This document shows, piece by piece, positions 29,303 to 48,081 of a DNA stretch of 64,000 nucleotides. The stretch comes from a virus: IMG/VR virus record IMGVR_UViG_3300047470_000395, positions 1-64,000 of that record. One strand, given 5' to 3'. The notes under the pieces are model-generated. The model did no database searches. It was not told the DNA's origin and saw only the letters and a program-made list of their open reading frames with translations. The first letter of the stretch is position 1, and each line of letters begins with the position of its first letter. A program made the position numbers and the translations under genes.

Positions 29303-29698
29303 GTGACTACTCAGCAACCTCAGCCGTCGAGCGATGAACCGATCGCCCATAACCCGGACATCATCGGGCCTGCGGTTCCCGACGCGAAGATCGGCCGGGA
29401 GGCCTTCGGGCTTCTCCTGCTCTCGTTCGGTGTGCTCGGCGGCCTCGGTGCGCTGGGTGCCCTGCACTGGGTCGCCGGTCTGTCAGCCGCGCTCATCGGC
29501 CTGTGTGGCAGTGGCGTCGTCGTCCGCCGCAACAGCAAGCAGCGATGGCAGCAAGACGCCGGCGCCATGGTCGCCTTCGCCGCCTACGCGGGGCAGACCG
29601 CCCTCCTGTTCTACCTGCTGCAGCCGCTCGGATGGCTGGCCGTCAGCTCCCTCGGCATAGCCGCTGGCCTGTGGCTGTCCAGCGATGAGGGGGCCTGA
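29303..29698 (+). CDS. Membrane protein before the portal gene
   Basis: 131 aa from GTG 29303 (VTTQQPQPSSDEP); ATG 29291 would overlap the promoter box. Three or four hydrophobic segments (FGLLLLSFGVLGGLGALGAL, WVAGLSAALIGLCGSGVVV, LLFYLLQPLGWLAVSSLGIA). The stop overlaps the portal start. Could be a small-membrane component or superinfection immunity protein; no family recognised. Confidence 0.7.
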   Translation: MTTQQPQPSSDEPIAHNPDIIGPAVPDAKIGREAFGLLLLSFGVLGGLGALGALHWVAGLSAALIGLCGSGVVVRRNSKQRWQQDAGAMVAFAAYAGQTALLFYLLQPLGWLAVSSLGIAAGLWLSSDEGA

Positions 29699-32181
29699 TG
29701 CCCCGCCAACTCTTCCCAGGGCTCCGCGGCCTCCTTGTTCCTCGAGGCGCCGTGGAGCCAGCAGCCGCGACCGCGCCCGTCGAGACGAAGGACCTGCTCG
29801 CAGGGGGCGTCTACTCGTCGATGTCGTACGCCGGCGTCACGAACGTGTGGGGTACCCCGGGCCGCGCGGACGGCTGGGACCTCGAGCGCGTCATCGTCGA
29901 GGGCTACGAGCGCTCCATCTGGACCTTCAAGTCCGTGGAGGCGATCAGCAAGCACGCCTCGACCCTGCCCATCCAGATTGGCCGCGGCGGCGACGAGCGG
30001 CAGTTCGCCGAGGTCCTCAAGGACCACCCGCTGTACAAGCTGCTCAACCGGAAGGCCAACCCGCTCGAGACCGGCGATGTCTTCAAGAAGCGGCTGAGCG
30101 CCCAGTTGCTGCTGAGTAAGAAGGGCGTGTTCGTAGAGAAGACGAAGAACCGGCGCGGGGTGCTGACCCGGCTCGACCTGCTGCCACCGGACCGCGTCCG
30201 CATCATCCCGGACACCGAGAACTCCGCCTATGTGAGCCATTTCGAGCTCACGGAGTACAACGGCCGCATCCGTGAACTGCCGCCGGAAAAGGTCATCTGG
30301 ATCAGAGACCCGCACCCCACGGACCCGTTCTGCGGCGTGACCCCGCTCGAGGCCGCTGGGCTGTCGGTCGACCTGGACGTCAAGGCCCGCACCTACAACA
30401 TCTCCTTTATCAACAATGACGGCCGCCCTGGCGGCATCGTCGGTATCGACCTGGACGGCGTCGACTCGTCAGAGGTCAAGCGGATCCAGAAGCGGCTCGA
30501 GCCGGGCGCGCACAACGCCGGACAGCTCACCCTCGTGGGCACCGGACCCGGCGGTGTCACGTACGTCGACACCTCGGCCCGCCCGCGGGAGATGGCATAC
30601 GAGACGCTCGCCAGCACCTCGAAAAACGAGATCCTCTCCGCATTCGGCGTACCCGAGAGTGTGATCGGCAACGCCAGCGAGCGGACGTTCGCGAACGCCG
30701 ACCGGGAGGAGTACACGTTCTGGGCTCACACCGAGCTCCCCCACCTCAACCTGCTTGCGTCGGCGTTCGACCCGGACCTGTCGGACGAGTGGGTGATCCG
30801 GTTCGACACCTCCCGCATTCAGGCGCTCGAGTTTCCCCGCCGTCAGGCCCGCGAGGAAGCGCGCAAGGAGTGGGAGTCGGGTCTCATCACCATCGACGAG
30901 TACCGGGTGGCGGCCGGGCGTACGCCCTTCAACACCCCGCAGTCCCGTGCGCTGTGGATCAGCCCACAGAAGGCACCCGTCCCCGCCAACGCCCAGGACG
31001 CGGCCGCACTCGGCCTCTCCGACCCGGGCGGCGCACCGGGCGCAGGCGGCGCCCCCGGAGCAGGCCCGGACGCTGGGCCGCCCGCGGCCGGCGGGAACCA
31101 GTCCGCCGCCGCGGCGGTCGCCGAGGCCCGCACCGACGAACCCGGTCCGAAAGCAGCCGACGACGTAGCCGCGGCCCGCGGGCAGGCACCCCTCGAGCCG
31201 TCCGCCGGAGCAGACTCGCCCGCGGCCGGCGCCGTGGCGGATGCCCGCGCCGACGTCACCGACGACACCCCCGGGGAAGCAGCCGACAACGTTGCGGCCG
31301 CCCGCGCCAGCACGGTGCAGCCCGAGGCCGGGCCCGCCGCCGAGGAAGTCGAGCGAGCACGCGCCCAGCTCGAGACCAAGGCGCTCTCCGGCGACGACAA
31401 CGGGTTCGAGGTCACCGACGCCGACTTCGACGCCCTCGCCGCAGCCATCGAGGCGGCCCTCACTGCGCTTCTGGCGCGCCAGGAGGGCGTCATCGTCGCC
31501 CGGCTCCACGCTCCGAAGATCCGCAAGCACACCAGGTTCTGGACGCCGGAGAACGACAACGACACCCGCGGCGGTGACGCCAACCTCGACGAGGACCGCG
31601 TCGTCAGCGCGGCCCGCTGGGCGGAGGAGACCACCAACACCCTCACCCCGATCCTGCAGCAGGCCGCGGCCGCCACCGCTCGCAAGCTGAGCAAGGCAGT
31701 CACCGGCACCGAGACGGTGCCCCCGGCCGCAGTCGCGCCCGCCCTCGTCACCGCGGCGCACGCCGGGGAAGCGATGACCGCGTTCCTCATCGAACTCGCC
31801 GCCGTGCTGCACCAGGCCCAGGCCGACCCGAACCTCGACCTCGACACGCTGAAGCACGTGGTCGGCGGCTTCTACAACTCGGCCGGCCCCGATCTCGCCG
31901 CCCGGGTCGCGGAGACCTGCGCCGTCTCGACCGTCAACGGGGCCGCGGACGCCGCAGCAGAGAACGCCGGGCCCGGAGTCGTCCGGACATGGCTCACCCG
32001 CCAGGACGACCGCGTACGGCCCGCGCACCGCGCCCTACAGGGCAAGACGCTGCCCGTCGGCACGCCGTACGAGATCGACGGCGCCCAGCTCCGTTACCCC
32101 GGCGACCCGTTCGCCCCGCTCGCCCTGACGATCAACTGCCGTTGCCGTCTCCACTACGCCACAGACGAGGACGTGAACTGA
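29698..32181 (+). CDS. Portal protein fused to a MuF-like head morphogenesis domain
   Basis: 827 aa. Residues about 60-440 read as an HK97-type portal (DHPLYKLLNRKANPLETG, LLPPDRVRIIPD, GITPLEA-like GVTPLEAAG, LSAFGVPESVIG). A Pro/Ala/Glu linker with repeated 'ADDVAAAR/ADNVAAAR' segments (about 445-560) joins a helical region. The end is a MuF-type module (about 760-825: TWLTRQDDRVRPAHRALQGK, LRYPGDPFAP, NCRCRL). The portal ring at one vertex is the DNA channel; MuF proteins sit inside the head near it. In most siphophages these are two genes. Confidence 0.9.
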   Translation: MPRQLFPGLRGLLVPRGAVEPAAATAPVETKDLLAGGVYSSMSYAGVTNVWGTPGRADGWDLERVIVEGYERSIWTFKSVEAISKHASTLPIQIGRGGDERQFAEVLKDHPLYKLLNRKANPLETGDVFKKRLSAQLLLSKKGVFVEKTKNRRGVLTRLDLLPPDRVRIIPDTENSAYVSHFELTEYNGRIRELPPEKVIWIRDPHPTDPFCGVTPLEAAGLSVDLDVKARTYNISFINNDGRPGGIVGIDLDGVDSSEVKRIQKRLEPGAHNAGQLTLVGTGPGGVTYVDTSARPREMAYETLASTSKNEILSAFGVPESVIGNASERTFANADREEYTFWAHTELPHLNLLASAFDPDLSDEWVIRFDTSRIQALEFPRRQAREEARKEWESGLITIDEYRVAAGRTPFNTPQSRALWISPQKAPVPANAQDAAALGLSDPGGAPGAGGAPGAGPDAGPPAAGGNQSAAAAVAEARTDEPGPKAADDVAAARGQAPLEPSAGADSPAAGAVADARADVTDDTPGEAADNVAAARASTVQPEAGPAAEEVERARAQLETKALSGDDNGFEVTDADFDALAAAIEAALTALLARQEGVIVARLHAPKIRKHTRFWTPENDNDTRGGDANLDEDRVVSAARWAEETTNTLTPILQQAAAATARKLSKAVTGTETVPPAAVAPALVTAAHAGEAMTAFLIELAAVLHQAQADPNLDLDTLKHVVGGFYNSAGPDLAARVAETCAVSTVNGAADAAAENAGPGVVRTWLTRQDDRVRPAHRALQGKTLPVGTPYEIDGAQLRYPGDPFAPLALTINCRCRLHYATDEDVN

Positions 32182-32541: not shown

Positions 32542-32754
32542 ATGTGGGCAGCTATCTGGATCGCCTGGACCACCGTCTTTGCCATCGCCGAAGCCATCGC
32601 CCTCGCCAACAAGAAGGACGAGGACACCCTCTCGGAGAACGTCCGCCGCCTGTTCCGCACGAGAACCAGCAAGGCGGGCCGGGCCATATTCGCGGCCGCC
32701 TGGTTCGGATTCAGCGGCTGGTTCGCGCTGCACATCCTGACGGAGACGATGTAA
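32542..32754 (+). CDS. Two-TM micropeptide
   Basis: 70 aa. Two transmembrane segments (AIWIAWTTVFAIAEAIALA and FAAAWFGFSGWFALHIL) with a basic middle loop (RRLFRTRTSKAGR). Could act in the envelope during injection or lysis; function unknown. Confidence 0.7.
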   Translation: MWAAIWIAWTTVFAIAEAIALANKKDEDTLSENVRRLFRTRTSKAGRAIFAAAWFGFSGWFALHILTETM

Positions 32755-32772: not shown

Positions 32773-32800
32773 CTTGCCCAATTGGGCAAGAACGATCTTG
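32773..32800 (+). repeat. 28-bp palindromic element, copy 1
   Basis: CTTGCCCAATTGGGCAAG (32773-32790), followed by AACGATCTTG (32791-32800). It lies 23 bp before promoter motif copy 3 and 72 bases before the predicted leaderless start of the giant gene. Confidence 0.85.
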
Positions 32801-32823: not shown

Positions 32824-32854
32824 CGCGACGCTAACCACGCGTGATGTGCATGGT
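32824..32854 (+). promoter_or_regulatory. Phage promoter motif, copy 3 (giant protein)
   Basis: CGCGACGCTAACC at 32824, CATGGT at 32849-32854, ATG 32862 seven bases later. No Shine-Dalgarno; leaderless start predicted. Confidence 0.7.
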
Positions 32855-32861
32855 CCGCGCC

Positions 32862-35800
32862 ATGCTGAATCGCCCCGCTGCTGCGCACGCTGAGTTGCAG
32901 GACCTGAGTGACGGTCTCGAGGTCAAGGCCGCCCGCCGTTGGAACCCGTCCCTGCATCCTCGCGACAGCAAGGGCCGGTTTATCGAGACGGGCGGCATCG
33001 TCCGCCTGTGGGGAGGCGATCTCGCGCGCGTCATGCGCGCCCTGCCGAACGATCGCATCCTCGTGCAGGACCAGACCGGCCCGGACGAATTCAACGGCCG
33101 CAGGCACACCACCAGCGCCAAGTGGGTGTCCATGGTGGCCCGCCCCGATGGCTCCGCGCCCACCGACAACGAGCACAAGGTCGAGGCGGAGGACGAGAAG
33201 CGGGACAAGGACGCGCGGCGCGGCAACGGCGTCGTCCATGACGACATCGGCGACCCCGACACCCCCAACGACGCCCACGCCGTCGACGACCGCGGCCGCG
33301 CGATCGGCGAGGACGACCACCCGGTCGGGCCTCGCGAGAACGACGACCAGGACGAGCCGGAGCACGGCAGGCACCCGGTCAACGTCCGCGCCCTGCCCAA
33401 CCAGAGCACCGCGGGCGGTAGCCGCTTCCAGGACACGGCGGCAGTCCGTCAGCACTTCCTCGACCTGGCCGACCGGCCCGACACCCGGCCGGAGATGGCG
33501 CAGTTCCTGCGTTCCGTCGCCACTGACGAGGACCTGCGCGTCTCGGGCGACCTGGCCGTCCTCCGCGACGACTCCACCGGCCGCTGGTACCTGACGGCGA
33601 CCGGCACCGGTCAGCGCATGGACCTCGCCGGGGACTTCGCCACCCCCGAGGAGGCCAGCGAGTTCGCGCGCCATCTCAGGCGCACCGCTCCGACCAAGGG
33701 CACTGCGATCCGCTCCCTTGCCCGGGGGTTCGACTTCTCCAACCCCGACCTTGACGCCGAGGCGCGCACCTGGCGCTCGGACAGGGACGAGAACATCGCG
33801 GCCGCCATCAAGCGGGCCCGCGGGGAATTCGACGCTTCCCGCTCCGCCCCCGCCTCCGATGCCGCCCGCGCCCCGCACGCCGACGCCGGCACCCCGGAGA
33901 CGGTCAGCCGCGAGGAGCTCAAGCCCGGCGACCGCGTCAAGGTCACCGTGAGCCGCAGCGACATCGAGTGGCCGACGAGCACCCGCGACCAGGACAAGCC
34001 GGAGACGGTCACCGTCGAGGGCACCATCGCGCCCACCCACTCGGCCGGCCCGGGTGTAAGCGGCGCAACGCTCGTCGACGTCACGCTGACCAGCCCGGAC
34101 GGCACGGTCATGACGTCCGGCGACACCGCACGCATCCGGCGCATGCCCACCCAGGTCGCACGCTCCGGGCACACCGACGGCTTCACCCCGGAGGAACGGC
34201 GTGCCGACCGCGTCCGTGTCGGCGACGTCATCGCCCGCGGGGAGTTCGGGCACGTCGTCACGCGCATTGACCGCGGTCAGGGCGGCCGCGCTTTCACCAC
34301 GCGCAACCTCGGCGGCCGTGGCGAGGTCGACCAGTTCGGCGCCCGCCACGGCGACATGCTGTCCGTCGTCCCGAAGGCCCGCCGCCGGCCGGAGGATGTG
34401 CAGCGCGACACCCCGGGCCACACACAGCAGCACCCCAACAGCAGGGATGCCAAGGGCGCGGCCGCGGCGATCCTCAGCGACTGGGCGAAGGTCAACGAGC
34501 TCGCCGCGCAGCAGTGGCCGGACGGGGCACCGGAGGAGTTCCGCACCCTGGCCCAGCACATGCAGAACGTCACGGACGCCCCGAAGGGCGCCGACGGCTA
34601 CCAGCAGAACGCCGACGCGATGCGCGGCGCCCTGGACGCGCTCCACGGCCTCGACAGCGAGGGCGTCAGCCAGGACATGGTGAAGGCGCTGCACCGGCTC
34701 GAGGAGGGCCTGGACGCCAACGCCGACCGGTTCGAGGCCGACTCCCGGGCGATCACGGAGAACAAGCGGAAGCGCGAGGCGGTCAACGCCCCGAACCCGG
34801 ACGCTCCAGCCGCCCCGAACGCCCCGCAGAGCAACGCCCCCACGAACGACCATCCGACGGGTGAACCGCTACAGCACAACTGGGACCCCGAGAACCTGGT
34901 CACCCTGACCATGCCGGAGGCGCTCGCGAACTTCCTGAACGTCGACGAGACCGCGGCCATGGAGGACCCCGACACCCGGAAGGCCCTCACAGAAGCCGTC
35001 CACGGCCGCAACGGCATCCTCAAGGTGACCGCACCGATCGAGACGCACCGCGCCCTGCTCGAGTGGGCGTGGACGCTCGCAGGCGGCGAAGGACTGGACT
35101 CCGACCCGAAGGAAGTCCGGGCCCACCGCAACTACACCAAGCGCGTCGACGAGGCCGCGGCAAAGCTGGAGCGCGAGCGGCAGCACCGCGGCGCCCCGGA
35201 CGCGAACGGGAACGCACCCGACGCCGGCACCGATGACGGTAAGACGGACGCGCCGTCGGCCAACACCCCCGGCGCCGACACCAGCGAGCCGCAGAACACC
35301 CCGGACACGGTCACCATGACGCCCGACGAGGTGTCCAACCACCTCGACGCGGTGCGCCCCGAAGGCTCCAAGGCGCCGTCACGCATGGACGACGGCGAGA
35401 TCCGCGACGAGATCGTCTCCCTGATGGAGCGGGAGATGGCCAACGGCGGGGAGCTGTCGGGAGTCGACCGCACCCGCCTCCAGGTCCTCGAGGCGGAAGA
35501 GGCCCGCCGCGCCGGCCGCGCGCCGAAGCGCGAGGACAAGCCGAAGCCGAAGCCCGCGGAGGAGCCCGGCGGCCTGTTCGACGTCGCCCCGGACGAGCAG
35601 CAGCAGTTCGTTGCCGACCCGAACAACCCCGACGACCTGGCGGACGACCCGCTGGGCACGCCGGACATGTTCGCCAACCACGAAGGCCGCGACACGTCCC
35701 GGCTGCGCCCCCCGCAGTCCCGCAAGCCTGCCGACTTCAAGCCCGGCGACCGGTTCGTCGACACCGACGGGCGCACCCACACCGTGAAGGAGGAGCCGAT

Positions 35801-38800
35801 ACGGACCCCGCGCGGCCGTATCCGCGTCGTCGATGAGGACGGCGGAGAGCACTTCCTCGCACCGGACAAGGAGCTGCGCGTCCTGCACGAGGGCGAGGAC
35901 GCCCCCGCGGTGCCGGAGACCAACGCCCCCGACGCGAACGCGCCGGAGAGCGGTGCTCCGTCCGCGGACACCCCGGAAACCGGCACACCGGGCGCCGACG
36001 CTGCAGACACCCCCAACAACGCGCCCGAGGGCGGCACCCCCGACACCCCGGACGACTCCGTCGCCCCGCCCGCCCCGGTCGGGGATGCGTCCCCGACGAG
36101 CATGAGCAACGAGGACATCGACGCCGAGCTCGAGGCGCTGCAGGCGTGGCAGAACCGGCACGTCGCAAGCAGCGGGGAAGGCCCGCGCGTTCAGGGCAGT
36201 CCCATGGTCGCTCTCTCTCCTGTCGGCAACCGGCGGGGCGCCCTGCGCGAGGAGCAGCGCAAGCGTGAGGTGGCCCGCCAGGACAAGGAGCGGAAGGAGA
36301 AGGAGAAGCAGGACCGGGCCGCAGCGCTCGCCCGTTCCGAGATCGGCAACCGCGCCGCTGACGGCTCGTACCCGGTGACCGTCGACGGCGAGAACGCCGG
36401 CAGCGTCAGCCAGACCGCCCGCAAGTGGCAGTACACCGACGCCGAAGGCCGCAGGTCTCCCGACTTCTACCCGAGCCGCGCCCAGGCCGTGGCCGCGCTG
36501 GTCAGCAACCGCGACGTCCGCCGGAACAACGACGCGCAGCACGCTCGCCAGGATCAGGCGCGTACGCAGACGCCGAACGGGTGGGCTCTCGGCGACCGCG
36601 CCGACGTGGCCGAGAACGACATCATCCGTATCCCCCGGATGGGCCGTGACCGTGACGGCAGGCCGTACCCCGAGGGCTGGGGCCAGCCGGTCCGCGTCAA
36701 CCGTGTGGAGCGCCGGGACGACGGCACGACGATCGTCTCCTACAGCAACCCGGACGGCTCGTATGCGGGAGGCAGCCCGCTGTTCCTGCGGGGTCCCGAC
36801 GACTCGTTCGCGTGGGCCAACGACCGCACCCGCCCGGAGCCGACCCCCGCGTGGCGGCACGAGCTCCGTCCCCGGATGGCCGACATCGGCGACGACGTCG
36901 CCACCCTGCTGAACCACGCCGACGGCCTCGACGACCAGGACCAGGAGCGGATGCGGCGCCTGGGCGAGCTGATCCGCCGCGTAGAGGACGGCGACACCGA
37001 GGATCTGCAGGCGGACCTCCGCAAGATCCGCGACGAGGCCGCGTGGCTCGAGGAGCAGTTCAGCCGCGAGGACCTGCCGTTCGAGACGCGCAGGTACAAG
37101 TCGTGGGCCACGGCCGCGCACGGGAAGGCACAGCGGTCCCTCGACCACCCTGACTTCCAGCACGGCAGCACGGCCGACGGCCCGGACAACGCCCCCGGCA
37201 ACGCCCCGGACGCGGACGCGCCGAGCGCCGATGGCGTGCCCGACTGGGCCAACGACCTCGGTGACGGTGTCTGGCTCGACGAGCCGAGGAGCACCGGCGG
37301 GCCCCGGAACATCTACGTCGACGGCCAGATTGAGGGACTCCTCGGTCGGGACCGGCCGAAGGGCAGGTACTACTGGTGGCGGCCGGGGGGCCAGACCAGC
37401 CAAGAACGCTTCGACACCCCCGAAGAGGCCGCCCGCGCCTTCGCCCGCGAGATGCGGGAGAACAACCTGCCGAGCCTGAGCACGCCCAACGACGGCGGCA
37501 ACGGCCACGACGACCGCGCCAGCCGTGCCCGGGACCTGTTCGGCGAGGGCATGAACGCCGTGGGCGGCGACTCCCTCCCGGAGATGCAGGAGCTGAACGA
37601 CCGCCTCGGCCGCGCTGATTCCTCGGACGACCGGGATGCGGAGCTGCGCGACGTCGCCGACCGCATGGACGAGCTCGCCGACCAGTACGGGCTCGCAGGC
37701 CCGCAGGGTGAGCTTGCCGCGGACCAGTTCCGTCGCGCCGCGCGCGCCGCCCGCGGTGAGCACGACGACCACAACGGCGACAACGGCGACGGCCAGCCCG
37801 ACGCCACGCCCATCACCGACGGCGAGTCCAACAACGGCCAGGACGACCAGCAGCGCAGCGACGACCAGGGCGACGGACAGCAGGACGACAACCAGCCCAG
37901 CAACCAAGACGACAACCAGGGCGACAACCAGGGCGACGACGAGGAGAGCCGTCGGCGCGACAACCCCAACCCCGACGGTGACGCGGCCGGCCCCGACGGC
38001 GCCCCCGACGGTGGCGGCCCGGGTGCGCCCGACGACACCAACGACTCGAGCGACTCCAACAACGACCAGAGCAACGGTCCCGACAACTCGGACGACTCGA
38101 CGGACGAGCCCAACCCAGACGAGGAGAACCAGGACTCCGAAGAGGAGAAGCGCCGCAAGCGTCGCCGCCGCAATCGTAACGGCGGAGGCGGTACCGGTGG
38201 CCCCGGCGGGGGCGGACCGGGCGGGCTTGGCCTGCCGCACCTGAGCCTGCCGAACCTCAACGTCCCCGCCGGAACGGGCGGCAACGGTGGCAACGGCAGC
38301 CACGGCGACGGCCACCACCCGCGTACGCCTCACAACCCCCGCCCGCACGACGTGGACTCCCTGCGGAACGCCTGGCGATCCGGTCAGGGACTCACCGCGG
38401 GCGAGGACACCCCCGAGCGGCGCGCCCACCTCGCCGATCTGGCGGACCGCGAGGGCCTCACCCTGTCCCCCCAGGGCGGACTCGCCCTGTATCCCGAGCA
38501 GCAGGACGACGGCACCACCGTGTGGCGCTTCGCCCAGGCCCGCAACGGCTCAAACCTGCCCGGCATCACCCTGACCACCGACGACCCCGAGGAAGCGCGC
38601 GCGCTCGCGGGCAGGTTCGAGGAGATCACCGACGCTAACGGCGACCCCTTCGACTGGCACCAGCCGCAGGGACCGGCCAGCGTCGCCGCGTGGCGTGACG
38701 GGGAAGGCCGCACCCTGCCCCAGGCCATCCGCGCGGTGCAGGACGACTACCAGCAGGAGCGCGCCGGAGCGTTCAACCTGCCCGAGGACCTCACGGGCAT

Positions 38801-41800
38801 GGACGACGCCGACCTCGAGGCCGCCATGCGGCAGGGCCTCGGCCCGGAGGACGAGCTCCGCGTCATGGCGGAGATGGACCGCCGAGACGGCTACGTCGAC
38901 GAGCGGGTCCGCGCTGCCGCGCAAGCCACGCCGCCGACGAACGCCGACGAAGCGGAGCGCGAAGGCCGCGCCATGGACGAGGCGCTCCGGTTCGGCGACA
39001 CGGACGTCACGCAGCCCGCTCCGGCCACCCCCGGACGCCTGCGCCGTGAGTTCGACGCCCTCGACGAGGAGCGTTTCCAGGCCGCCATGCAGGCCACCGG
39101 CGGGCGGATGCTCAGCCCCGAGGCCGAAGCCCAGGGCATCGACCCGCGGGCCCTGTTCTCCGGCGGCAAGTACAGCAACAAGCAGGCGAAGGAACTGGCC
39201 TCGCCCGAGCTGAAGCACTGGTTCGACGGAGACGACAACACCCCCGGCAACGGCCGACTCACGTACCCGCAGTACCGGGCGCGGGAGACCGACCGCGCCC
39301 TGCGCGCCGAGTTCGCCGACTGGGACGAGGCCCGCTACCGGCAGGCCGTCGACTTCACGAACGGCTACTTCTTCCGCCGCGAGTACAAGTACGGCTTTAC
39401 CGACTTCAACGAGCGAGAGCTGTTCTCCGGCGGCAGCCTGAGCGCCCGGGACCGGTGGATGCAGTACGCCAGCGACGAACTGCAGGAGTGGTTCGACCTC
39501 AACGGCGGCCGCCAGACATTCGCCCAGTTCCGCGAGGCACGCCGCGCCAACGACCGCGCCGAACGGCACCAGCACGAGGAGGAGGAGCTGCAGCGCGCCG
39601 CCGGGGGCACTCCCGAAGGCGGAGCCCCCAACGGGGCGGGACCCCTCACTGACGACGACGTCACCCCCGCGCCGCCCTTCAACGCCGCCACCCCCGAGAG
39701 CGAGTCCGACGCCTCATTCCGCTTCGGCGGCCGCGACCGTATGCAGCAGTTCGCCGACCGAGCCGAGGTACGCCCGGACGGAGCCACCTCCGAGGGCGTG
39801 TGGCTCAACGGCCGGCAGATCGGCACCATCCACAACGTCAACGGTGCCAACGCCGACCGTGAACCGGTCTGGGACGCCAGCCCGTTCTACGGCCTGGACC
39901 ACTCCGCCAACAGCCGTTCCCAGAGCCGGGACACGGCCATCGCCAACCTTGTCGTCCGCGCCCTGCAGAACGGCCCCACGGACTCCTCGAACCCGAGCGA
40001 GGACATGTGGGACTCGGTGACCCTGCACCTGGCAGGCCTCACCCACCCGCTGCCCGAGCTGCCGGAAGCCCTTCGCGACGACCCGGAGGCGCGCGCCCGG
40101 TACGACCGGCTGTCCAGCATGGTCGACTCCTTCCGGGACCAGCAGTCGCCCACCGGCGACCTGCGCCAGGACCTGGCGCAGGCCCGCGACGACTTCGCGT
40201 GGCTGCACGACGCGCTCGAGGGACAGGCGCGTACCCCCCAGCAGCGCGAGGAACTGTCCGACCTCAAGACCCGCACCTTCTGGGCGGACCGTCTCCAGCA
40301 CGGTCTCGGGGAGCCGAACAGCGACCTGGAGCGCCCCCACGCTCCCGGTGAGCCGCAGGGCGCCGGAGATGCGCCGTCCCCGGCGGTGCCGACGCCGGAG
40401 CCGGCGAACGCCCCGGACGACACCGCCGATCCGTCGGCGACACCCGAACCTGAGCCTGAGCCGAACCCGGACCCGATCGGCGGCCAGCCCGCGCACTGGG
40501 CCCGCGTCGGGGACTTGGCGCAGGGCGACATGGTCCGCATGAACGGCACCACCAGGAGGGGCCGGCCGGTCCAGCGCGCCGGATACGTGCAGAGCACGCC
40601 CGAGCTGGTCGACGTCACCCGCCGCGGCCGCACCGACCAGATGTGGCGTACCTGGGTCACCGAGAACCCGGACGGCACCGGCGCTGCCGGGAACGTCTAC
40701 ACGTCCGCCAACGCCACCGCGGCGCGCGCCGAGGCGCCGGACAACGTCGTGCCCGGATCCCCGGCCAGCGGTGCCCAGGCGTCGCTGCGCTCCGGTGATC
40801 TGCCCGACCAGATCCCCGCCGACCGTGACGGCAACGGCCTGTTCCCCGGCAGCACCGTCCGCGGCACCAACGACCGTGAAGGCACCATTACCGGTGCTGC
40901 CCCCACCACCGTGTCGGTGCACTGGTCCGACGGCAACGACGACGACGCGCTCCCGGCGACCACGCTGACCGTGACCAACGCACAGCGCCCCGACGGCTGG
41001 ACCGCCGACGGGCACCGGGTGACCACACAGAGCATCGTCAGCGACAGCGACGGCGCCCTCCTCGGCCCCGTCGACGACGTCGCCGGAGACAACGTCACCG
41101 TCCACACGACCGACGGCACCATCACCCGCAGCGCGGGCGACCTCCGCGTCACCGGCCAGGTGCGCGACGACGCACCCCCGACCGCACCGGTGACCGGCAT
41201 CGACGAGCCCGCGGCCGCGGACCTCAAGGACGGCGACGTCGTCGTCCTGGACCTCGACGGCCAGCTCTCCACCGTCGCGATCACCAGCCCGCCCCACCAC
41301 GACGGCGACCGCGTCACCCTGCAGTACGCCGACACCACCACCGGCGAGATGGGCGAGATCGACGTCGACGCCCGCGCGGTCCTCCCACGCGCCCAGGGCC
41401 CCGACGGTGGCGCCCCGGACCTCGGCCCGGACAACGCGCCGGAGCCGGCCGACGACCTGACCGTGCACCCGACCCCGCGCACCGTGGACCCGGTGACCGG
41501 CCCGACCGTCGATCCGGACCTCGACTCGAGCGACCGGAACGTCATCGGTGACCACGCCGACGGCCCGGACACCGACCCCGACGCCCACCAGGCGGCCGTG
41601 CGCATCACCAGCGACCTTCCCGTCACCCCGGAGCAGGCGCAGGCCCTGGCGACGCAACTGCGCTCTGCCGCGGACCCGTCGACGCTGGAGGGCCGCGCCG
41701 CACTCCGCGCCGCGGACCACCTCGACCGCGCCGCCGGCCGGACCCCGCCCACGGGCCTTGACCGGCCCCGGGCGTCGAACGCCGCACAGATCGGCGAGGG

Positions 41801-44333
41801 CGACCTGGTGGCCATGCCGGACGAGCGCCACGGCGACCAGGTGCGTGTCTTCCGCGTCATCGACGCCGAGGACGGCCCCGGAGGCGTGCGCAGCTTCCTC
41901 CTGGAGGACGAGAACCAGCAGTGGCGGCGCCGCGTCGTCCACGGGGCCATGCCCGTGTGGCAGCTCCCCGAGGCCGAGCCGGAGCCCGTTGTCCCGCCCG
42001 ACGTCGACGACACCGACGGCGCACCGGACTCTGCGGGTGACTCCGGATTCGGTATCCCCGGGGGCCCGATGCGCCGCGCTGGAGACGACCCTGCCGCGCC
42101 GACCGCCCCGACCGCTCCGACCGCCCCGACCGCTCCGGCCACGCCGGACGGCTCGAGCACCCCGGACGAGCCCACGGCGCCCGTCGCCCAGGTCCGCCCG
42201 GGAAGCCTGCGCCGCGGCGACGTCATCGACGCGCCCGTGAGCCGGACCGGCTACCAGTTCAACGGCCACCGGCGACTGACCATCATCAGCGAGCCGCAGC
42301 GCAACGGCTGGTGGATGCAGCTCACCGGCGTCGACGAGGACGGCAACGTCCACGACTTCGGGCTGCACAACGGCCGTGCCGTGAACGTCTACGACCGGAA
42401 CCGGCCCACCCCGGCCCTGCCTCCGGCCGGTACGCCCCGCGACCCCAACCAGGTGCCGCAGACCGACCTCAACCAGCTCGTCACCGACCACGGACGCGCC
42501 CACGCCGCCCGCATCATCGACGAGGCCATCGCAGGCACGGAGCCGCCCGGCGACATCCACGCCCTGCGTGAGGGCATCGCCCAGCGCCTCACCCCGGATG
42601 CCCTGGCCAACGCCCGCCAGGCGACCCGCCAGGACGGCATCGCTGCCCTCGACGCCGCGAGCATCACCGGCCGGGACCGGGCGAGCGCCCAGCGCCGCCT
42701 GCGCACCACCCGCAACCGGGCCCACGACGACACCGTGCGCGCGGCCCTGCGCACCATCAACGACCTCGAGCCCCTCGACGGCGAGAGCAACGAGGACCTG
42801 GCGGCCCGCGCCCGGGACCTGCTGCGCCTCATCCCGGACCAGGTCGCCGGCCGCCCAGACGCCGACCCCGACGCCGACCCCGACGTCACCCGGGCCGTGA
42901 CGGGACACGCCGACGACGCGGTGAACACGCTCCTGCAGCAGCTCCAGGCCGCGGGCGTGGACCCGGGCGACGCCGAGCGGATCGCCCGCGTGCTCACCCA
43001 GCAGATGGCCGGGACCCGGCAGGCCACCGCCCGCCGGATCGCGCGCCGGGTTGCCGCGGCGAACCCCGACGCCGGACGACAGCCGGGCCTCCTCGCCCGG
43101 ATCGTCGCCGCCCTGGTCCGCCTGGCCAAGCGGTTCGGGGAGCTGGTGAAGCAGGGAGCCCGGACGATCGCCGAGAAGTACCGCGACTCGCGCGAACGCC
43201 TCGCCCGCCTGCGCGCCTTCCTGGGCCGCATGGTGCGCCGTGTCCGGCAGTGGCCGGAGTCCCGCCGCCTGGCCCGCCTCCACCGTGCGGTGAACCTGCC
43301 GGACACGGACGGCGAGTCGCTCGCCGCACGGATCAGCCACTGGGCCGGACTCATGCCGGAGCCGGGCCGGTTCGGGCAGTCGCAGCGGCGCCTCACGTTC
43401 TGGCGGCCGACCACGTGGGCGCGCCTCGCGTCCGGTCATCTCCCGGACCGGTCGGACCGGATCCAGTGGACCCCGGACCGTGCAGCCGACGGCGGCCCCG
43501 GCCTGACCGGGCTCCGCCACATGGCAGCCCTGCGAATGGCCGGCCAGGACGTCGACACCGACGTGACCCGTCGTCTGTCCGCCGCTCTCGGCGACGACTT
43601 CGGGGACGACCCGCACGTCACGCTGCAGCACGCGGACGACTACGTGGCCGCGAGCGAGCGCCGCCTGGTCAACCTGCAAGCGGCCCGCAGTAGCGCGACC
43701 ATCCCGGACGACCCCGACCTCGACATCGAGATCACGGGCGCCCGCTCCGAGCTCGCGGCCGCCCGCCGGGAGTACTCGGACCTGCGGACGCGATACGCCG
43801 CCGCCGTGCCCGACGCCGTGGCCGCGTCCCTGGCCGACATCCGCGACATGGGCCCCGAGGGCACCGCCGCGATCGTGTTCGGCCCTGACACCGACCCGGA
43901 CGCCGAACGCGCCGTGCGAGGCGTCCAGCGGCTCATCCCCCGGTCATGGCTCAACACCGCCGAGGCACGCCGCTTGACGGCCGTGGACGGCACCCAGGGC
44001 CGGTACGAGCCGGAGGGACAGCGGGCCACGGTCGCCGACCTGGCCGACGAGGGACTCGGCACGGCCGGGTTCGCCCTGGGCCAGCACTTCGCCGGACACC
44101 TCGGCGACCTCGACGCCGCGCAGCGCGCGTTCCAGTTCAGCCGGACCCACACCGGCCGGCCGGGCGCCCGCCGGATGCAGCGCAGCCCGTGGGACCGGAT
44201 CCGGCGACGGCAGCAGACGCAACCGGAGACCGGTGACACTCTCGCCCGGTCCATTCAGGCGATGTTTAGTGGCGACTGGTACCAGGACGACGACATGCGC
44301 GCGTTCCTCCTGGGCCTGCTCGCCACGCGATAA
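32862..44333 (+). CDS. Giant modular virion-associated protein (polyvalent-type)
   Basis: 3,823 aa, 18% of the window. The leaderless ATG 32862 is preferred to 32841, which lies in the promoter. Starts with HPRDSKGRFIETGG, a common opening of head-associated proteins. Many small modules are joined by Ala/Pro/Asp linkers. About nine are GDxV barrel modules (near residues 352, 451, 958, 1250, 2552, 2660, 2787, 2978, 3117). Others are a repeated 'VDGxxxG...W...SRxxA' unit (1169, 1468, 2312), helical hairpins, and two tandem LFSGG modules (2060 and 2147). A Gly/Asp/Asn/Arg tract (about 1640-1790) divides the protein. The end holds a basic amphipathic stretch (3409-3470) and a zincin-like fold with HFAGH (3742-3746). 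Such proteins after MuF are thought to enter the cell with the DNA. Confidence 0.8.
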   Translation: MLNRPAAAHAELQDLSDGLEVKAARRWNPSLHPRDSKGRFIETGGIVRLWGGDLARVMRALPNDRILVQDQTGPDEFNGRRHTTSAKWVSMVARPDGSAPTDNEHKVEAEDEKRDKDARRGNGVVHDDIGDPDTPNDAHAVDDRGRAIGEDDHPVGPRENDDQDEPEHGRHPVNVRALPNQSTAGGSRFQDTAAVRQHFLDLADRPDTRPEMAQFLRSVATDEDLRVSGDLAVLRDDSTGRWYLTATGTGQRMDLAGDFATPEEASEFARHLRRTAPTKGTAIRSLARGFDFSNPDLDAEARTWRSDRDENIAAAIKRARGEFDASRSAPASDAARAPHADAGTPETVSREELKPGDRVKVTVSRSDIEWPTSTRDQDKPETVTVEGTIAPTHSAGPGVSGATLVDVTLTSPDGTVMTSGDTARIRRMPTQVARSGHTDGFTPEERRADRVRVGDVIARGEFGHVVTRIDRGQGGRAFTTRNLGGRGEVDQFGARHGDMLSVVPKARRRPEDVQRDTPGHTQQHPNSRDAKGAAAAILSDWAKVNELAAQQWPDGAPEEFRTLAQHMQNVTDAPKGADGYQQNADAMRGALDALHGLDSEGVSQDMVKALHRLEEGLDANADRFEADSRAITENKRKREAVNAPNPDAPAAPNAPQSNAPTNDHPTGEPLQHNWDPENLVTLTMPEALANFLNVDETAAMEDPDTRKALTEAVHGRNGILKVTAPIETHRALLEWAWTLAGGEGLDSDPKEVRAHRNYTKRVDEAAAKLERERQHRGAPDANGNAPDAGTDDGKTDAPSANTPGADTSEPQNTPDTVTMTPDEVSNHLDAVRPEGSKAPSRMDDGEIRDEIVSLMEREMANGGELSGVDRTRLQVLEAEEARRAGRAPKREDKPKPKPAEEPGGLFDVAPDEQQQFVADPNNPDDLADDPLGTPDMFANHEGRDTSRLRPPQSRKPADFKPGDRFVDTDGRTHTVKEEPIRTPRGRIRVVDEDGGEHFLAPDKELRVLHEGEDAPAVPETNAPDANAPESGAPSADTPETGTPGADAADTPNNAPEGGTPDTPDDSVAPPAPVGDASPTSMSNEDIDAELEALQAWQNRHVASSGEGPRVQGSPMVALSPVGNRRGALREEQRKREVARQDKERKEKEKQDRAAALARSEIGNRAADGSYPVTVDGENAGSVSQTARKWQYTDAEGRRSPDFYPSRAQAVAALVSNRDVRRNNDAQHARQDQARTQTPNGWALGDRADVAENDIIRIPRMGRDRDGRPYPEGWGQPVRVNRVERRDDGTTIVSYSNPDGSYAGGSPLFLRGPDDSFAWANDRTRPEPTPAWRHELRPRMADIGDDVATLLNHADGLDDQDQERMRRLGELIRRVEDGDTEDLQADLRKIRDEAAWLEEQFSREDLPFETRRYKSWATAAHGKAQRSLDHPDFQHGSTADGPDNAPGNAPDADAPSADGVPDWANDLGDGVWLDEPRSTGGPRNIYVDGQIEGLLGRDRPKGRYYWWRPGGQTSQERFDTPEEAARAFAREMRENNLPSLSTPNDGGNGHDDRASRARDLFGEGMNAVGGDSLPEMQELNDRLGRADSSDDRDAELRDVADRMDELADQYGLAGPQGELAADQFRRAARAARGEHDDHNGDNGDGQPDATPITDGESNNGQDDQQRSDDQGDGQQDDNQPSNQDDNQGDNQGDDEESRRRDNPNPDGDAAGPDGAPDGGGPGAPDDTNDSSDSNNDQSNGPDNSDDSTDEPNPDEENQDSEEEKRRKRRRRNRNGGGGTGGPGGGGPGGLGLPHLSLPNLNVPAGTGGNGGNGSHGDGHHPRTPHNPRPHDVDSLRNAWRSGQGLTAGEDTPERRAHLADLADREGLTLSPQGGLALYPEQQDDGTTVWRFAQARNGSNLPGITLTTDDPEEARALAGRFEEITDANGDPFDWHQPQGPASVAAWRDGEGRTLPQAIRAVQDDYQQERAGAFNLPEDLTGMDDADLEAAMRQGLGPEDELRVMAEMDRRDGYVDERVRAAAQATPPTNADEAEREGRAMDEALRFGDTDVTQPAPATPGRLRREFDALDEERFQAAMQATGGRMLSPEAEAQGIDPRALFSGGKYSNKQAKELASPELKHWFDGDDNTPGNGRLTYPQYRARETDRALRAEFADWDEARYRQAVDFTNGYFFRREYKYGFTDFNERELFSGGSLSARDRWMQYASDELQEWFDLNGGRQTFAQFREARRANDRAERHQHEEEELQRAAGGTPEGGAPNGAGPLTDDDVTPAPPFNAATPESESDASFRFGGRDRMQQFADRAEVRPDGATSEGVWLNGRQIGTIHNVNGANADREPVWDASPFYGLDHSANSRSQSRDTAIANLVVRALQNGPTDSSNPSEDMWDSVTLHLAGLTHPLPELPEALRDDPEARARYDRLSSMVDSFRDQQSPTGDLRQDLAQARDDFAWLHDALEGQARTPQQREELSDLKTRTFWADRLQHGLGEPNSDLERPHAPGEPQGAGDAPSPAVPTPEPANAPDDTADPSATPEPEPEPNPDPIGGQPAHWARVGDLAQGDMVRMNGTTRRGRPVQRAGYVQSTPELVDVTRRGRTDQMWRTWVTENPDGTGAAGNVYTSANATAARAEAPDNVVPGSPASGAQASLRSGDLPDQIPADRDGNGLFPGSTVRGTNDREGTITGAAPTTVSVHWSDGNDDDALPATTLTVTNAQRPDGWTADGHRVTTQSIVSDSDGALLGPVDDVAGDNVTVHTTDGTITRSAGDLRVTGQVRDDAPPTAPVTGIDEPAAADLKDGDVVVLDLDGQLSTVAITSPPHHDGDRVTLQYADTTTGEMGEIDVDARAVLPRAQGPDGGAPDLGPDNAPEPADDLTVHPTPRTVDPVTGPTVDPDLDSSDRNVIGDHADGPDTDPDAHQAAVRITSDLPVTPEQAQALATQLRSAADPSTLEGRAALRAADHLDRAAGRTPPTGLDRPRASNAAQIGEGDLVAMPDERHGDQVRVFRVIDAEDGPGGVRSFLLEDENQQWRRRVVHGAMPVWQLPEAEPEPVVPPDVDDTDGAPDSAGDSGFGIPGGPMRRAGDDPAAPTAPTAPTAPTAPATPDGSSTPDEPTAPVAQVRPGSLRRGDVIDAPVSRTGYQFNGHRRLTIISEPQRNGWWMQLTGVDEDGNVHDFGLHNGRAVNVYDRNRPTPALPPAGTPRDPNQVPQTDLNQLVTDHGRAHAARIIDEAIAGTEPPGDIHALREGIAQRLTPDALANARQATRQDGIAALDAASITGRDRASAQRRLRTTRNRAHDDTVRAALRTINDLEPLDGESNEDLAARARDLLRLIPDQVAGRPDADPDADPDVTRAVTGHADDAVNTLLQQLQAAGVDPGDAERIARVLTQQMAGTRQATARRIARRVAAANPDAGRQPGLLARIVAALVRLAKRFGELVKQGARTIAEKYRDSRERLARLRAFLGRMVRRVRQWPESRRLARLHRAVNLPDTDGESLAARISHWAGLMPEPGRFGQSQRRLTFWRPTTWARLASGHLPDRSDRIQWTPDRAADGGPGLTGLRHMAALRMAGQDVDTDVTRRLSAALGDDFGDDPHVTLQHADDYVAASERRLVNLQAARSSATIPDDPDLDIEITGARSELAAARREYSDLRTRYAAAVPDAVAASLADIRDMGPEGTAAIVFGPDTDPDAERAVRGVQRLIPRSWLNTAEARRLTAVDGTQGRYEPEGQRATVADLADEGLGTAGFALGQHFAGHLGDLDAAQRAFQFSRTHTGRPGARRMQRSPWDRIRRRQQTQPETGDTLARSIQAMFSGDWYQDDDMRAFLLGLLATR

Positions 44334-44342
44334 GGAGGCAGC

Positions 44343-44612
44343 GTGTTCACCGTCACCGGCGCATTCGATGACGGTGCGACCTACACCGTGCAGATCACCG
44401 GGCGGGCAGACCGCCCGGTGATCGGGTCGCACCGGGCCGCGGCCCTCGTGGAGCTCCACCTGGGCGAGAAGGTCCTCCTGTCCCCGACCGGCCCCCTGGC
44501 GGCCGTTGCCGGGGACGACGGGGCGTCCGTGCTCGCAGTGCTGCGCGAGTACACCAACGTGATCGAGGAGAGCGGCGGCGTACCCCGGCAGGCGAGCGTG
44601 CCCGGGAGCTGA
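44343..44612 (+). CDS. Small hypothetical virion-region protein
   Basis: 89 aa, GTG start with AAGGAGG upstream. Beta-rich (FTVTGAFDDGATYTVQITG) with a helix AALVELHLGEKVLL. No family recognised; translated from the tail of the giant-gene transcript. Confidence 0.65.
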   Translation: MFTVTGAFDDGATYTVQITGRADRPVIGSHRAAALVELHLGEKVLLSPTGPLAAVAGDDGASVLAVLREYTNVIEESGGVPRQASVPGS

Positions 44613-44709: not shown

Positions 44710-45348
44710 GTGACCAGATACGGATTCGCCATCAAGGCTCTCCCCAAGGGCGCCAAGCCTTTCGGGCAGGAAGACGACAAGAACAAGGAGAACCCGGGGC
44801 TCGAGACATCCAGCCCCGGCGCCTCCGACAGCGACACCTCCCTGGACCCCGCGGACGAGCTGCCCGAGGACCCGACGGCGGCCCCGTTCGCGCCCGCCGA
44901 CGACCCCGCGGCGCCCCCGGAGGACCCTGCAGCCTCCCCTGCCGCGGACGCTCCACCGGCGGGAGACGGCACCGGAGAGGAGCCGACGGACGCCCCGCCA
45001 CAGCCGGAAGGTGACTCCCGCCCCTGGGCCGGAGACGAGTACAACGAGGGCGAGGAGACCGATCCCGACGGCCCCCTGTCGTGGTCTGCGTTCACCGGCG
45101 GCAACGGGGAACAGGCTTGGCTCGACAAAGCCCAGGACGGCACACTGACCGGATGGGTGCGGGACTCCACCGGCCAGGTGTGGCGCTACACCGACCCCGA
45201 CGCGTGGGCGCTCGACGTCGACGGCGCCCACATGACGCAGACGCACCACAACGGCGAGGACAACGCCCAAGCGGCCGGGGACGGCACGCAGGGCGGACAG
45301 CCCCCGGACGACCGGGGCAAGCAGGACCTGATGTTCGCGGGCCAGTGA
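44710..45348 (+). CDS. Acidic proline-rich protein
   Basis: 212 aa from the predicted leaderless GTG 44710 (VTRYGFAIKALPKGAKPFG). Longer versions starting MPNW translate the repeat element and are artefacts. Residues 25-120 are disordered, Asp/Glu/Pro/Ala-rich. A C-terminal part (about 125-180) has WSAFTGGNGEQAWLDKAQDG and GWVRDSTGQVWRYTDPDAW. Possible capsid-scaffold or head accessory; no family recognised. Confidence 0.65.
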   Translation: MTRYGFAIKALPKGAKPFGQEDDKNKENPGLETSSPGASDSDTSLDPADELPEDPTAAPFAPADDPAAPPEDPAASPAADAPPAGDGTGEEPTDAPPQPEGDSRPWAGDEYNEGEETDPDGPLSWSAFTGGNGEQAWLDKAQDGTLTGWVRDSTGQVWRYTDPDAWALDVDGAHMTQTHHNGEDNAQAAGDGTQGGQPPDDRGKQDLMFAGQ

Positions 45349-45633: not shown

Positions 45634-47856
45634 GTGCCGAGCGCTGCTCCACCCACCAGATCCACCCGTCCCAGCACCACCCAGCGAGGCACCAGCCGGG
45701 CAATCTACGCCGTGACGGGCGTGGTCGACGAGGTCGATGACCTCATCCTGCCTGGTGCTTTCACCCGCACCCTGGCTTCACGGCCCGTCAAGTCCGTGTG
45801 GCATCACGGGTGGAAGGACCCTGTCGGCGTCGTCCTCGAGTGCGAGGAGTGGCTGCCCGGGGACGTCCGATTCAAGAGCGTGCCCGACTGGCCCCCCGAG
45901 GCCGGCGCGCTCGTCGCCACCGTGCTCTACAACCTGCGCACCCAGCAGGGCCGCGACGCCTACGAGCAGGTCAAGCAGTGGCATGAGCACAAGCAGGCCG
46001 CGTTCTCGATCGGCTTCCGCGTCCCTGAGTGGGGCGCCTCCACCCGCAACAAGATCCGTGTCATCCACGACATGGACCTGTTCGAGGTCTCGCCCGTTCT
46101 GCACGGCGCGCACCCGATGACCCGCTCCCTCGAGGTGAAGTCCGCCGCCGGTAGCGGCCACGACGGGCTCGAGTACAAGTCCACGCCCGGCCCCGTAGAG
46201 ATCGACGTCGTCGCCTCCTCAAAGAGCGATGACGCCGTCAAGGTCGCGGGACTGGTCGTCAAGGCCGCCGACACGGGCCGCGTCCTGATGATCCAGCGCG
46301 CCCTCGACGACGAGGACCCGGCCGCGGGCACCTGGGAGTTCCCCGGCGGACATGGGGAGGACGACGAGGACCCGCTCCAGACTGCGATCCGCGAGTGGGG
46401 TGAGGAGACCGGCTCGACGCTCCCCGGCACCACCAGCGTCGTCGGGTCCTGGACAGCCCCGAACGGCATCTACCGGCTCTACGTGGCAGTCGTCCCGACC
46501 GAGGCGTCTGTACCGATCAACACCCCGCACGACGAACGCCGGATCGCCAATCCGGATGACCCGGTTGGCGACGCGACCGAGGTCACCGCCTGGTGGCCGA
46601 TCACGGCTCTCCCCGATATGCCGCTCCTGCGGCAGGAGTGCCGCGAAACCCCGTGGGACCTCCTGGCCGGCGCTGCCCTGCCGAAGCCCTCCGGGCCGAC
46701 CCTCGACCCCGTGAAGGTCGCGGCCGGGACCGTCGCTGCCCAGGACTTCGCCGACGGTGTGCTGTCCCGATACCGGGCCCTCGCCGCCGCCGAGAAGAAG
46801 TCCGCGCACGCCGCGGTGCAGGGCGCCCGTACCCGGCCGCACCTCGAGCACAAGTCCGCCCGCGTCATCGTCGCCGAGGCCAAGTCCGCCGGCGGCGCGG
46901 ACCAGAACCGCGGGGACGCCGAGCAGTTGCGGCACTGGTACGTCCGCGGTGAGGGCGCAGCTCAAATCGGCTGGGGCACTCCCGGCGACTTCGACCGCTG
47001 CGTGTCCATCGCCGGACGCCACATGAGCCCGGAGAACGCCAAGGGCTACTGCAATCTCCGCCACAAGGACGCCCTGGGCATCTACCCCGCCACCCACGCG
47101 GCCGAGAGCAAGAGCGCTCGCCGCGCTGTCCTCGAAGCCAAAGCACGACTCAGCGCCAGCACTGGAGACCCCATGGACCCGATCCAGACCCTGCCCCAGT
47201 CGTTCGAGCAGATCCGCGACCGCCTCGGCCAGGCCGTCCGCATGCTGCTCGCTCCCGATGACGACACCTGGGCGTGCATCCACGGCACCTACCCGGACCA
47301 CGTCATCGCCTCGGTGCACTCCGGCGAAGAGGGAGAGGAGCACTACCTGGTGCCGTACACCCTCGACGGCGACGACGTGGACCTGGGCACGCCGAAGCCG
47401 GTCACGCTGGCCACCGTCGTTGTCTCCGACGAGGACGACGACGAGCCGCGCGAGGCCGACGAGGACGAGGAGGCCGAAGCCCGCGTCGTTCAGCCCACGG
47501 TCGACGCGCTCAGCGACGCGACCGCGCGGATCAGCACCACCACCGCGGGCCCGAAGCAGCTCGAGGATGTCCGCGACAAGGTCCGTGACCTGATCGCCGC
47601 CCTGTCGGCGAAGGGACTCGACGTCGCCGACGCACAGCCCGCACGCCGCGGGCCGGCGGCCGCAGCGTCGGGGCTGGACCTGTGGGACGAGGACGACGAG
47701 GAGACGCCCGACGACACCGGGGACGGCGATCCCGAAGGCGACGGAGGAGACCCCGCGGGCGACCAGGACGACCCGACCCTCAAGCCGAAGGACGACGACG
47801 CCGTCCGCCTGGACCCCGACGAGGTGAGGGCCGCACTCGCCGCACTGCGGAGCTGA
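45634..47856 (+). CDS. Capsid maturation protease fused to a Nudix domain
   Basis: 740 aa with four parts. Residues 15-170 form an HK97-type prohead protease: the histidine region VWHHGWKDPVG (H57-H58) and the serine in AFSIGF (S125). Residues 200-345 form a Nudix hydrolase with a complete box at 239-261 (GHGEDDEDPLQTAI, REWGEETGS). Residues about 435-485 carry QIGWGTPGDFDRCV and GYCNLRHKDALG, a module often found near actinophage protease genes. The C-terminal 200 residues are acidic and helical, like a scaffold. The protease releases scaffold during head maturation; the Nudix fusion is unusual. Confidence 0.88.
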   Translation: MPSAAPPTRSTRPSTTQRGTSRAIYAVTGVVDEVDDLILPGAFTRTLASRPVKSVWHHGWKDPVGVVLECEEWLPGDVRFKSVPDWPPEAGALVATVLYNLRTQQGRDAYEQVKQWHEHKQAAFSIGFRVPEWGASTRNKIRVIHDMDLFEVSPVLHGAHPMTRSLEVKSAAGSGHDGLEYKSTPGPVEIDVVASSKSDDAVKVAGLVVKAADTGRVLMIQRALDDEDPAAGTWEFPGGHGEDDEDPLQTAIREWGEETGSTLPGTTSVVGSWTAPNGIYRLYVAVVPTEASVPINTPHDERRIANPDDPVGDATEVTAWWPITALPDMPLLRQECRETPWDLLAGAALPKPSGPTLDPVKVAAGTVAAQDFADGVLSRYRALAAAEKKSAHAAVQGARTRPHLEHKSARVIVAEAKSAGGADQNRGDAEQLRHWYVRGEGAAQIGWGTPGDFDRCVSIAGRHMSPENAKGYCNLRHKDALGIYPATHAAESKSARRAVLEAKARLSASTGDPMDPIQTLPQSFEQIRDRLGQAVRMLLAPDDDTWACIHGTYPDHVIASVHSGEEGEEHYLVPYTLDGDDVDLGTPKPVTLATVVVSDEDDDEPREADEDEEAEARVVQPTVDALSDATARISTTTAGPKQLEDVRDKVRDLIAALSAKGLDVADAQPARRGPAAAASGLDLWDEDDEETPDDTGDGDPEGDGGDPAGDQDDPTLKPKDDDAVRLDPDEVRAALAALRS

Positions 47857-47997: not shown

Positions 47998-48081
47998 CAC
48001 GCCTCGCGTTGAGGCGTCCCGGTGCTGGCCGGGCGAACGGCGCACGTCAACCGCCACCCCAGCATCAGGGAGAGCCCCGCA

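Follow-up and report, generated by a model that had tools for sequence, protein, structure and literature searches.

What is the role of a protein of 3,823 residues whose gene takes up 11.5 kb between the portal and the prohead protease genes of a phage? The question is raised by the window analysed here, a stretch of 64,000 nucleotides that forms a portion of a virus record of 125,780 bases (IMGVR_UViG_3300047470_000395). The frame is open from a GTG at 32841 (3,830 aa) or from the ATG at 32862 (3,823 aa), the latter being the start that is kept in relatives, and it runs to its stop without interruption. G+C at codon positions 1, 2 and 3 is about 0.75, 0.52 and 0.92 along the full length, which is a coding pattern, in a genome of 71% G+C. 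An earlier, sequence-only reading of the window had proposed a protein of this length at this place, longer than the tape measure. Frame, coding pattern and gene position all agree with that proposal, and the tape measure has 1,347 aa. The main features of the locus are collected in Table 1.

A comparison of the giant with Pfam, PHROG and NCBIfam yielded no significant match and no recognisable enzyme, and a T7-like RNA polymerase domain was likewise not matched in Pfam or PHROG. The gene is separated from the portal-MuF gene by an SNase gene and by the gene for the 70-aa protein. The 70-aa and 89-aa proteins flank the giant in nearly all relatives and may represent packaging partners. The protease is unusual in that a NUDIX hydrolase and an acidic tail are fused on, an arrangement that is kept across the family.

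Table 1. Positions of the giant gene, its parts and its surroundings in the window
Feature	Position	Strand	Remark
Portal-MuF fusion	29698..32181	+	always upstream of the giant
70-aa putative membrane protein	32542..32754	+	kept directly upstream of the giant
Perfect 18-bp palindrome CTTGCCCAATTGGGCAAG	32773..32790	.	precedes the promoter-like motif by about 50 bp
Promoter-like motif CGCGACGCTAACC..TGTGCATG	32824..32852	+	kept upstream of the giant in about 30 loci
Giant modular gene	32862..44333	+	ATG to stop, 3,823 aa, 414 kDa, pI 4.8
Conserved N-terminal part, aa 1-330	32862..33851	+	NP(A/S)LHPRDSKGRF motif, small barrel, acidic linker, beta-sheet/helix domain
Exchangeable slot 1, aa 331-675	33852..34886	+	here two GDxV barrels and a helical block
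Helical modules (aa 676-772, 838-885) and GDxV barrel (aa 955-1010)	34887..35891	+	
Exchangeable slot 2, aa 1011-1083	35892..36110	+	here a short linker
Hairpin-VDG-GDxV-hairpin-VDG-like-hairpin array, aa 1083-1613	36108..37700	+	
Asp/Asn/Gly-rich acidic linker, aa 1641-1830	37782..38351	+	evolves fast
Beta-sheet/helix domain, second copy, aa 1854-1969	38421..38768	+	
Two tandem LFSGG modules, aa 2064-2153 and 2151-2240	39051..39581	+	helical
KOW/SH3-like barrel array (predicted fold), aa 2541-3033 and 3108-3182	40482..42407	+	
Long helical region, aa 3195-3480	42444..43301	+	conserved
Conserved C-terminal domain	43329..44330	+	end reads GDWYxDDDxRAFLLGLxATR
FALGQ	44070..44084	+	position of the Thermobispora HExxH (HELAH); catalytic Glu and second His lost
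89-aa gene	44343..44612	+	conserved partner, 10 bp downstream of the giant
212-aa gene	44710..45348	+	conserved
S78 prohead protease-NUDIX fusion	45634..47856	+	
HK97-type major capsid protein (MCP)	48022..49374	+	

The gene had also been credited with an element and a promoter of its own, and both were found upstream of it. The palindrome occurs in exact copies at 32773, 44622, 51774 and 51836, four in the window where none is expected; it is possibly an operator or an activator site. Several copies precede a promoter-like site by about 35-50 bp. The promoter-like motif consists of CGCGACGYTAACC, a spacer and TGTGCATG, and is located 10-38 bp upstream of the ATG of the giant in the loci that keep it. 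When the window was scanned with a matrix trained without it, taking the best of 60 random windows (19.7) as the noise level, the site of the giant scored highest of all (39.6), and the sites before 56358 and before the portal gene also exceeded the noise. The five next-best sites are each within noise, and all of them are intergenic, on the + strand and upstream of TerL, the MCP and other late genes (the complete set, all +, is 43, 29265, 32824, 47967, 51871, 52486, 56288 and 62928). A scan for sigma-70 promoters found none. The motif is probably a phage-specific late promoter of the virion genes, and a phage sigma factor such as gp92 of phage Gilgamesh could be its reader. If the second box acts as the -10 element, the transcript would start at the ATG of 32862 or right beside it and would be leaderless.

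Family, exchangeable cargo and the C-terminal domain

From Streptomyces phages and prophages we have collected 38 full-length homologues (3,284-7,690 aa), and the frame is interrupted in none of them (0/38). Queries with the C-terminal and N-terminal parts added 17 and 37 IMG/VR loci, respectively, as well as 4 Streptomyces genomes. Matches to the N-terminal part were present in all of 19 records, and the C-terminal profile found 17 of 18 more distant ones, the lone miss being a fragment of 39.8 kb. The proteins are conserved and colinear over about 330 residues at the N-terminus and about 2,000 at the C-terminus, and the region between these ends is full of insertions and deletions. On these alignments the giants are a previously unnamed family with fixed ends and an exchangeable middle.

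The gene order portal-MuF, 70-aa protein, giant, 89-aa protein, 212-aa protein, protease, MCP is kept wherever the flanks are present, the SNase gene being variably present. Members of the family are present on complete circular plasmids (125-145 kb) of both Streptomyces and Thermobispora, and a plasmid of Thermobispora bispora has a homologue of 3,842 aa in the slot between portal and protease. Since Gilgamesh, in addition, has ParA, ParB and FtsK-like genes, these elements are to be regarded as plasmid prophages. The giant has a direct homologue in Gilgamesh gp48 (MN234216; 4,624 aa, annotated as hypothetical protein), which lies in the same slot, has no cysteine and covers 92-93% of the window's giant at 67-84% identity. 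It is about 800 aa longer, mainly through duplicated modules at slot 2.

More than half of the family (24/38) carries at slot 1, in the same frame, a cassette of a DarB-like adenine methylase and an SNF2 helicase. The cassette matches PHROG 10089 ('DarB-like antirestriction') at E=0 and the SNF2, Helicase_C and Eco57I methylase families of Pfam, and its motifs are intact (NVPF in the methylase, GxGKT and DEAH in the helicase); BLAST retrieved the DarB giants of PEp14 and DC1, and P1 DarB at about 5e-24. The same slot is empty in one member (L032). At slot 2 a single member (L035, 1/38) carries a UvrD helicase, Gilgamesh the duplicated modules and the window a linker. Methylase-helicase and UvrD are both absent from the window's giant. 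In the longest members (L117, L120 and L123) the SNF2 helicase is followed by an extra P-loop (VMALAGTGKSSTLKM) and by matches to PHROG DNA helicases, which suggests a second, UvrD-like helicase in these proteins.

In a tree of the C-terminal part the cassette is present throughout the outgroup clade (8/8) and absent from the clade of the window, and 3 changes suffice in all. Loss is therefore the simplest reading: the cassette is likely ancestral and was secondarily lost in the window's lineage, with the direction of the change deduced from midpoint rooting. A gene for DpdA (PF23859), a DNA 7-deazaguanine transferase, is found at G000 101051-101791, outside the window, and as gp114 in Gilgamesh. 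It is present in 6 of 8 cassette-less and 1 of 8 cassette-bearing records (Fisher p 0.04). The idea that this modification replaces the lost cassette was considered unsupported, as the comparison contains only one phylogenetically independent pair.

The Thermobispora homologue provides the key to the conserved C-terminus. It matches the C-terminal profile (E 1.8e-51) and contains HELAH, and its zincin-like domain aligns to the Streptomyces C-termini without a gap in the active-site helix (E 3e-13 to 1e-10; in BLAST, L122 at 3e-13 and L119 at 5e-12). HELAH is replaced by HALAQ in the Streptomyces members and by FALGQ in the window, and the dead site is common to all Streptomyces members. On this alignment the conserved end of the giants is read as an inactivated zincin-like domain. 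The name is taken from the HExxH motif, the helix around it and the context of polyvalent proteins, Pfam and PHROG support in the Thermobispora protein being weak. A zincin with a conserved HxxxH (QHFAGH) was rejected for the Streptomyces C-terminus, since its second His is absent in L113, L119 and L122 and the alignment places HELAH over FALGQ/HALAQ. A profile search of PDB sequences with the C-terminal 630 aa gave chance helical matches only.

With cassette and zincin residues both gone, it could be argued that the window's giant is in decay and that its function went with the enzyme cassette. We consider this extremely unlikely, because the frame is unbroken in all 38 members, all Streptomyces members have the dead zincin, and the modules are under purifying selection among close cassette-less relatives. 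More specifically, dN/dS among close relatives is 0.00-0.31 in most modules, 0.48-0.49 in the slot-1 barrels and 0.5-0.78 in linkers, the fastest-evolving parts being the linkers 773-835, 1011-1083 and 1641-1830 and the region 1466-1640. The low values argue against decay as well as against unstructured filler.

Modules and predicted folds

That the chain is built of repeated small modules, as first noticed from the sequence alone, holds up to statistics. There are 14 occurrences of GDx[V/I/F] where 3.6 are expected, a count reached in none of 2,000 shuffles, and profile searches with reversed decoys together with self-comparison recovered three VDG units, two LFSGG units, one helical hairpin in three copies, a second hairpin type and a duplicated beta-sheet/helix domain (aa 213-329, in the conserved N-terminal part, and aa 1854-1969). 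The GDxV barrels did not recognise one another by HMM. A self-similarity between aa 822-881 and 1457-1522 was dismissed as a misalignment artefact. The first four units of the array at aa 1083-1613 are those that are tandemly duplicated in Gilgamesh.

An AlphaFold model of aa 2624-3823 (mean pLDDT 72) was matched by Foldseek to the KOW array of Spt5 (7xn7_W; E 3.4e-5, probability 1.00), to the eIF5A/EF-P barrel and to free-standing phage proteins of about 70 aa. The fold search in this region thus recovered five-stranded, KOW-type barrels in tandem, and the GDxV barrels are, according to the model, KOW/SH3-like at the level of the fold and without a sequence match. For the model of aa 1830-2640 (pLDDT 79), Foldseek against the PDB gave nothing at E<=0.001. 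The models do not predict the arrangement of the domains in space (pTM 0.34-0.42). It had been suggested that the parts of the protein may be new. This stands for the VDG, LFSGG and hairpin modules, for which neither the curated Pfam families nor solved structures gave a match, and not for the GDxV barrels or for the C-terminus with its dead zincin.

KOW-type barrels commonly bind nucleic acid, and binding of nucleic acid is therefore the most likely guess for the barrels that remain in the giant. Their resemblance to transcription-elongation factors, and the fact that the elements with giants are circular plasmid prophages (125-145 kb), could also point to a protein that acts early or in lysogeny, in plasmid maintenance or host control, and is merely placed among virion genes. 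This seems very improbable to us, as the gene lies in the virion block in a constant slot, shares its promoter motif with TerL, portal and MCP, and excludes cysteine in the way of ejected proteins.

With its LFSGG-bearing end (aa 3680-3813) the Thermobispora giant (L134) matches the head maturation proteases of PHROG 1752 in their C-terminal part (E 1.2e-14), a hint that LFSGG may serve in association with the head. A search for head modules in the window's own portal, protease and MCP found none.

Cysteine exclusion, related systems and the proposed role

A clear common property of the giants is the exclusion of cysteine. The window's protein has none in 3,823 residues, where about 36 are expected at the rate of the other genes of the window (0.93%), and the 38 giants together have 11 in 199,002 residues. 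Ten divergent members, counted with their enzyme cassettes, have none over 53,093 residues. Base composition does not explain this, since the two other frames of the gene hold 123 and 43 cysteine codons. Among large control proteins, N4 vRNA polymerase, N4 gp51, T7 gp15 and gp16, tape measures and the DarB giants of PEp14 and DC1 are also free of cysteine, whereas polymerases, terminases, portals and P1 DarB have some. In the N4-like vRNA polymerases the lack has been linked to passage into the host (PMC3915230, PMC2784036). The pattern in the giants is suggestive of selection for unfolding and threading through the tail. Nevertheless, not every ejected protein excludes cysteine, as the 9 cysteines of P1 DarB show, and major capsid proteins lack it although they are not ejected.

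A comparison with known systems gives the frame for a functional reading. The DarB giants of DC1 and JC1 (Burkholderia) and PEp14 (Erwinia) belong to PHROG 10089, have 4,515-4,914 aa and are multidomain proteins encoded in the virion block, and those of DC1 and PEp14 lack cysteine like the window's giant. Their methylase-helicase cassette is that of the 24 family members, but the window's protein has neither the cassette nor sequence similarity to them, and gene order and hosts differ. P1 is a phage-plasmid with a packaged giant too. The methylase and SNF2 domains of its DarB are homologous to those of the long members, although the protein differs in its cysteines, in its length (2,255 aa) and in having no homology to the window's copy. 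P1 DarB is located in the head, the first 30 residues directing cargo to the capsid (PMC9024508), and the DarB-like giant of JC1 (gp69) was represented by 51 unique peptides in purified virions (PMC9144972). N4 gp50, the virion RNA polymerase (3,500 aa), is another giant without cysteine that is encoded among virion genes, and it is known to be injected; its RNA polymerase domain has no counterpart in the window's giant.

The window's giant further shares with the polyvalent proteins (Iyer et al. 2017, PMC5512222) the many domains per chain and the position near portal and MuF, to which come the methylase-SNF2 dyad of its relatives and the C-terminus, which is probably derived from a zincin, zincin-like peptidases having been placed in many polyvalent proteins (PMC5512222). 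It differs in the dead state of the zincin, in a KOW array and VDG, LFSGG and hairpin modules that match no curated family, and in the length of the largest members of its family, which reach 7,690 aa. Anti-defence domains are absent from the window's copy and present in 24 of 38 homologues, next to the UvrD helicase of L035.

Taken together, we consider it likely that the giant is a virion protein of the DarB/polyvalent kind, which is made late, packaged in the head and ejected with or ahead of the DNA. That it belongs to the polyvalent proteins, packaged and injected to counter host defences, had been proposed from the outset. The first part of the proposal, a packaged polyvalent protein, is as a reading well supported by the DarB dyad in most homologues, the probably zincin-derived C-terminus, the place in the virion block, the promoter motif shared with virion genes and the lack of cysteine as in ejected giants. 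The second part fits the window's copy less well, as it is without recognisable anti-defence enzymes, and a role against host defences is here conjectural. Because the defining methylase-helicase was tested for and is absent, the protein is not filed as DarB; it is a cassette-less member of the new family.

In the proposed sequence of events, the giant would be built late into the prohead, between portal and capsid shell, and enter the host ahead of or together with the DNA, for which the 414-kDa chain would have to pass a siphovirus tail. By analogy to P1 DarB, the protein is probably targeted to the head by its conserved N-terminal part. At the other end, the conserved long helices and the inactivated zincin would probably anchor the protein to portal or head, and the interior would be an exchangeable string of cargo. 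In most relatives the adenine methylase and the SNF2 translocase would, like P1 DarB, shield the DNA from restriction as it enters. In the phage of the window, which has probably lost the cassette, the most likely binding partners of the KOW-like barrels and small modules would be DNA, nascent transcripts or host proteins.

An internal scaffold or core would need no delivery at all: it would shape or fill the prohead, bind the portal, and stay there or be processed by the S78 protease. The position between portal and protease/MCP, the acidic character, the long helical region, the absence of an enzyme from the window's copy and the conserved 89- and 212-aa partners would all suit such a protein, as would the match of the Thermobispora LFSGG region to a head maturation protease family and the example of P1 DarA, a head-size determinant that is also part of the Dar system (PMC9024508). 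However, the giants range over 3,284-7,690 aa across phages whose MCPs are 65-91% identical to that of the window, a cargo of DarB and UvrD would be senseless in a pure scaffold, and neither MCPs nor scaffolds need to exclude cysteine from large enzyme domains. We therefore regard the scaffold as improbable and retain the ejected DarB/polyvalent-kind protein.

A more far-reaching version, which we put forward tentatively and hold to be rather doubtful, is that the family constitutes a programmable ejection vehicle, free of cysteine, with one fixed end for targeting to the head, another for anchoring at the portal, and cargo (methylase-helicase, UvrD helicase, KOW arrays) that is swapped between them. 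The enzyme-free chain of DNA- or transcript-binding barrels in the window, of about 414 kDa, would then thread the tail and cover or escort the genome.

If ejected, the giants would be among the largest virus-delivered proteins known. The upper protein size in huge phages is 7,694 aa (PMC7162821), a limit that is matched by the 7,690-aa member, yet with a genome of 126 kb. If the reading is true, the lack of cysteine long noted for the N4 vRNA polymerase would become a usable predictor of ejected proteins, enzyme domains included. The family, moreover, offers natural experiments, in which the same ends are combined with other cargo or an empty slot in close temperate Streptomyces phages, and the role of a DarB-type protein without enzymes should be approachable in Gilgamesh, a phage of the laboratory host S. 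lividans.
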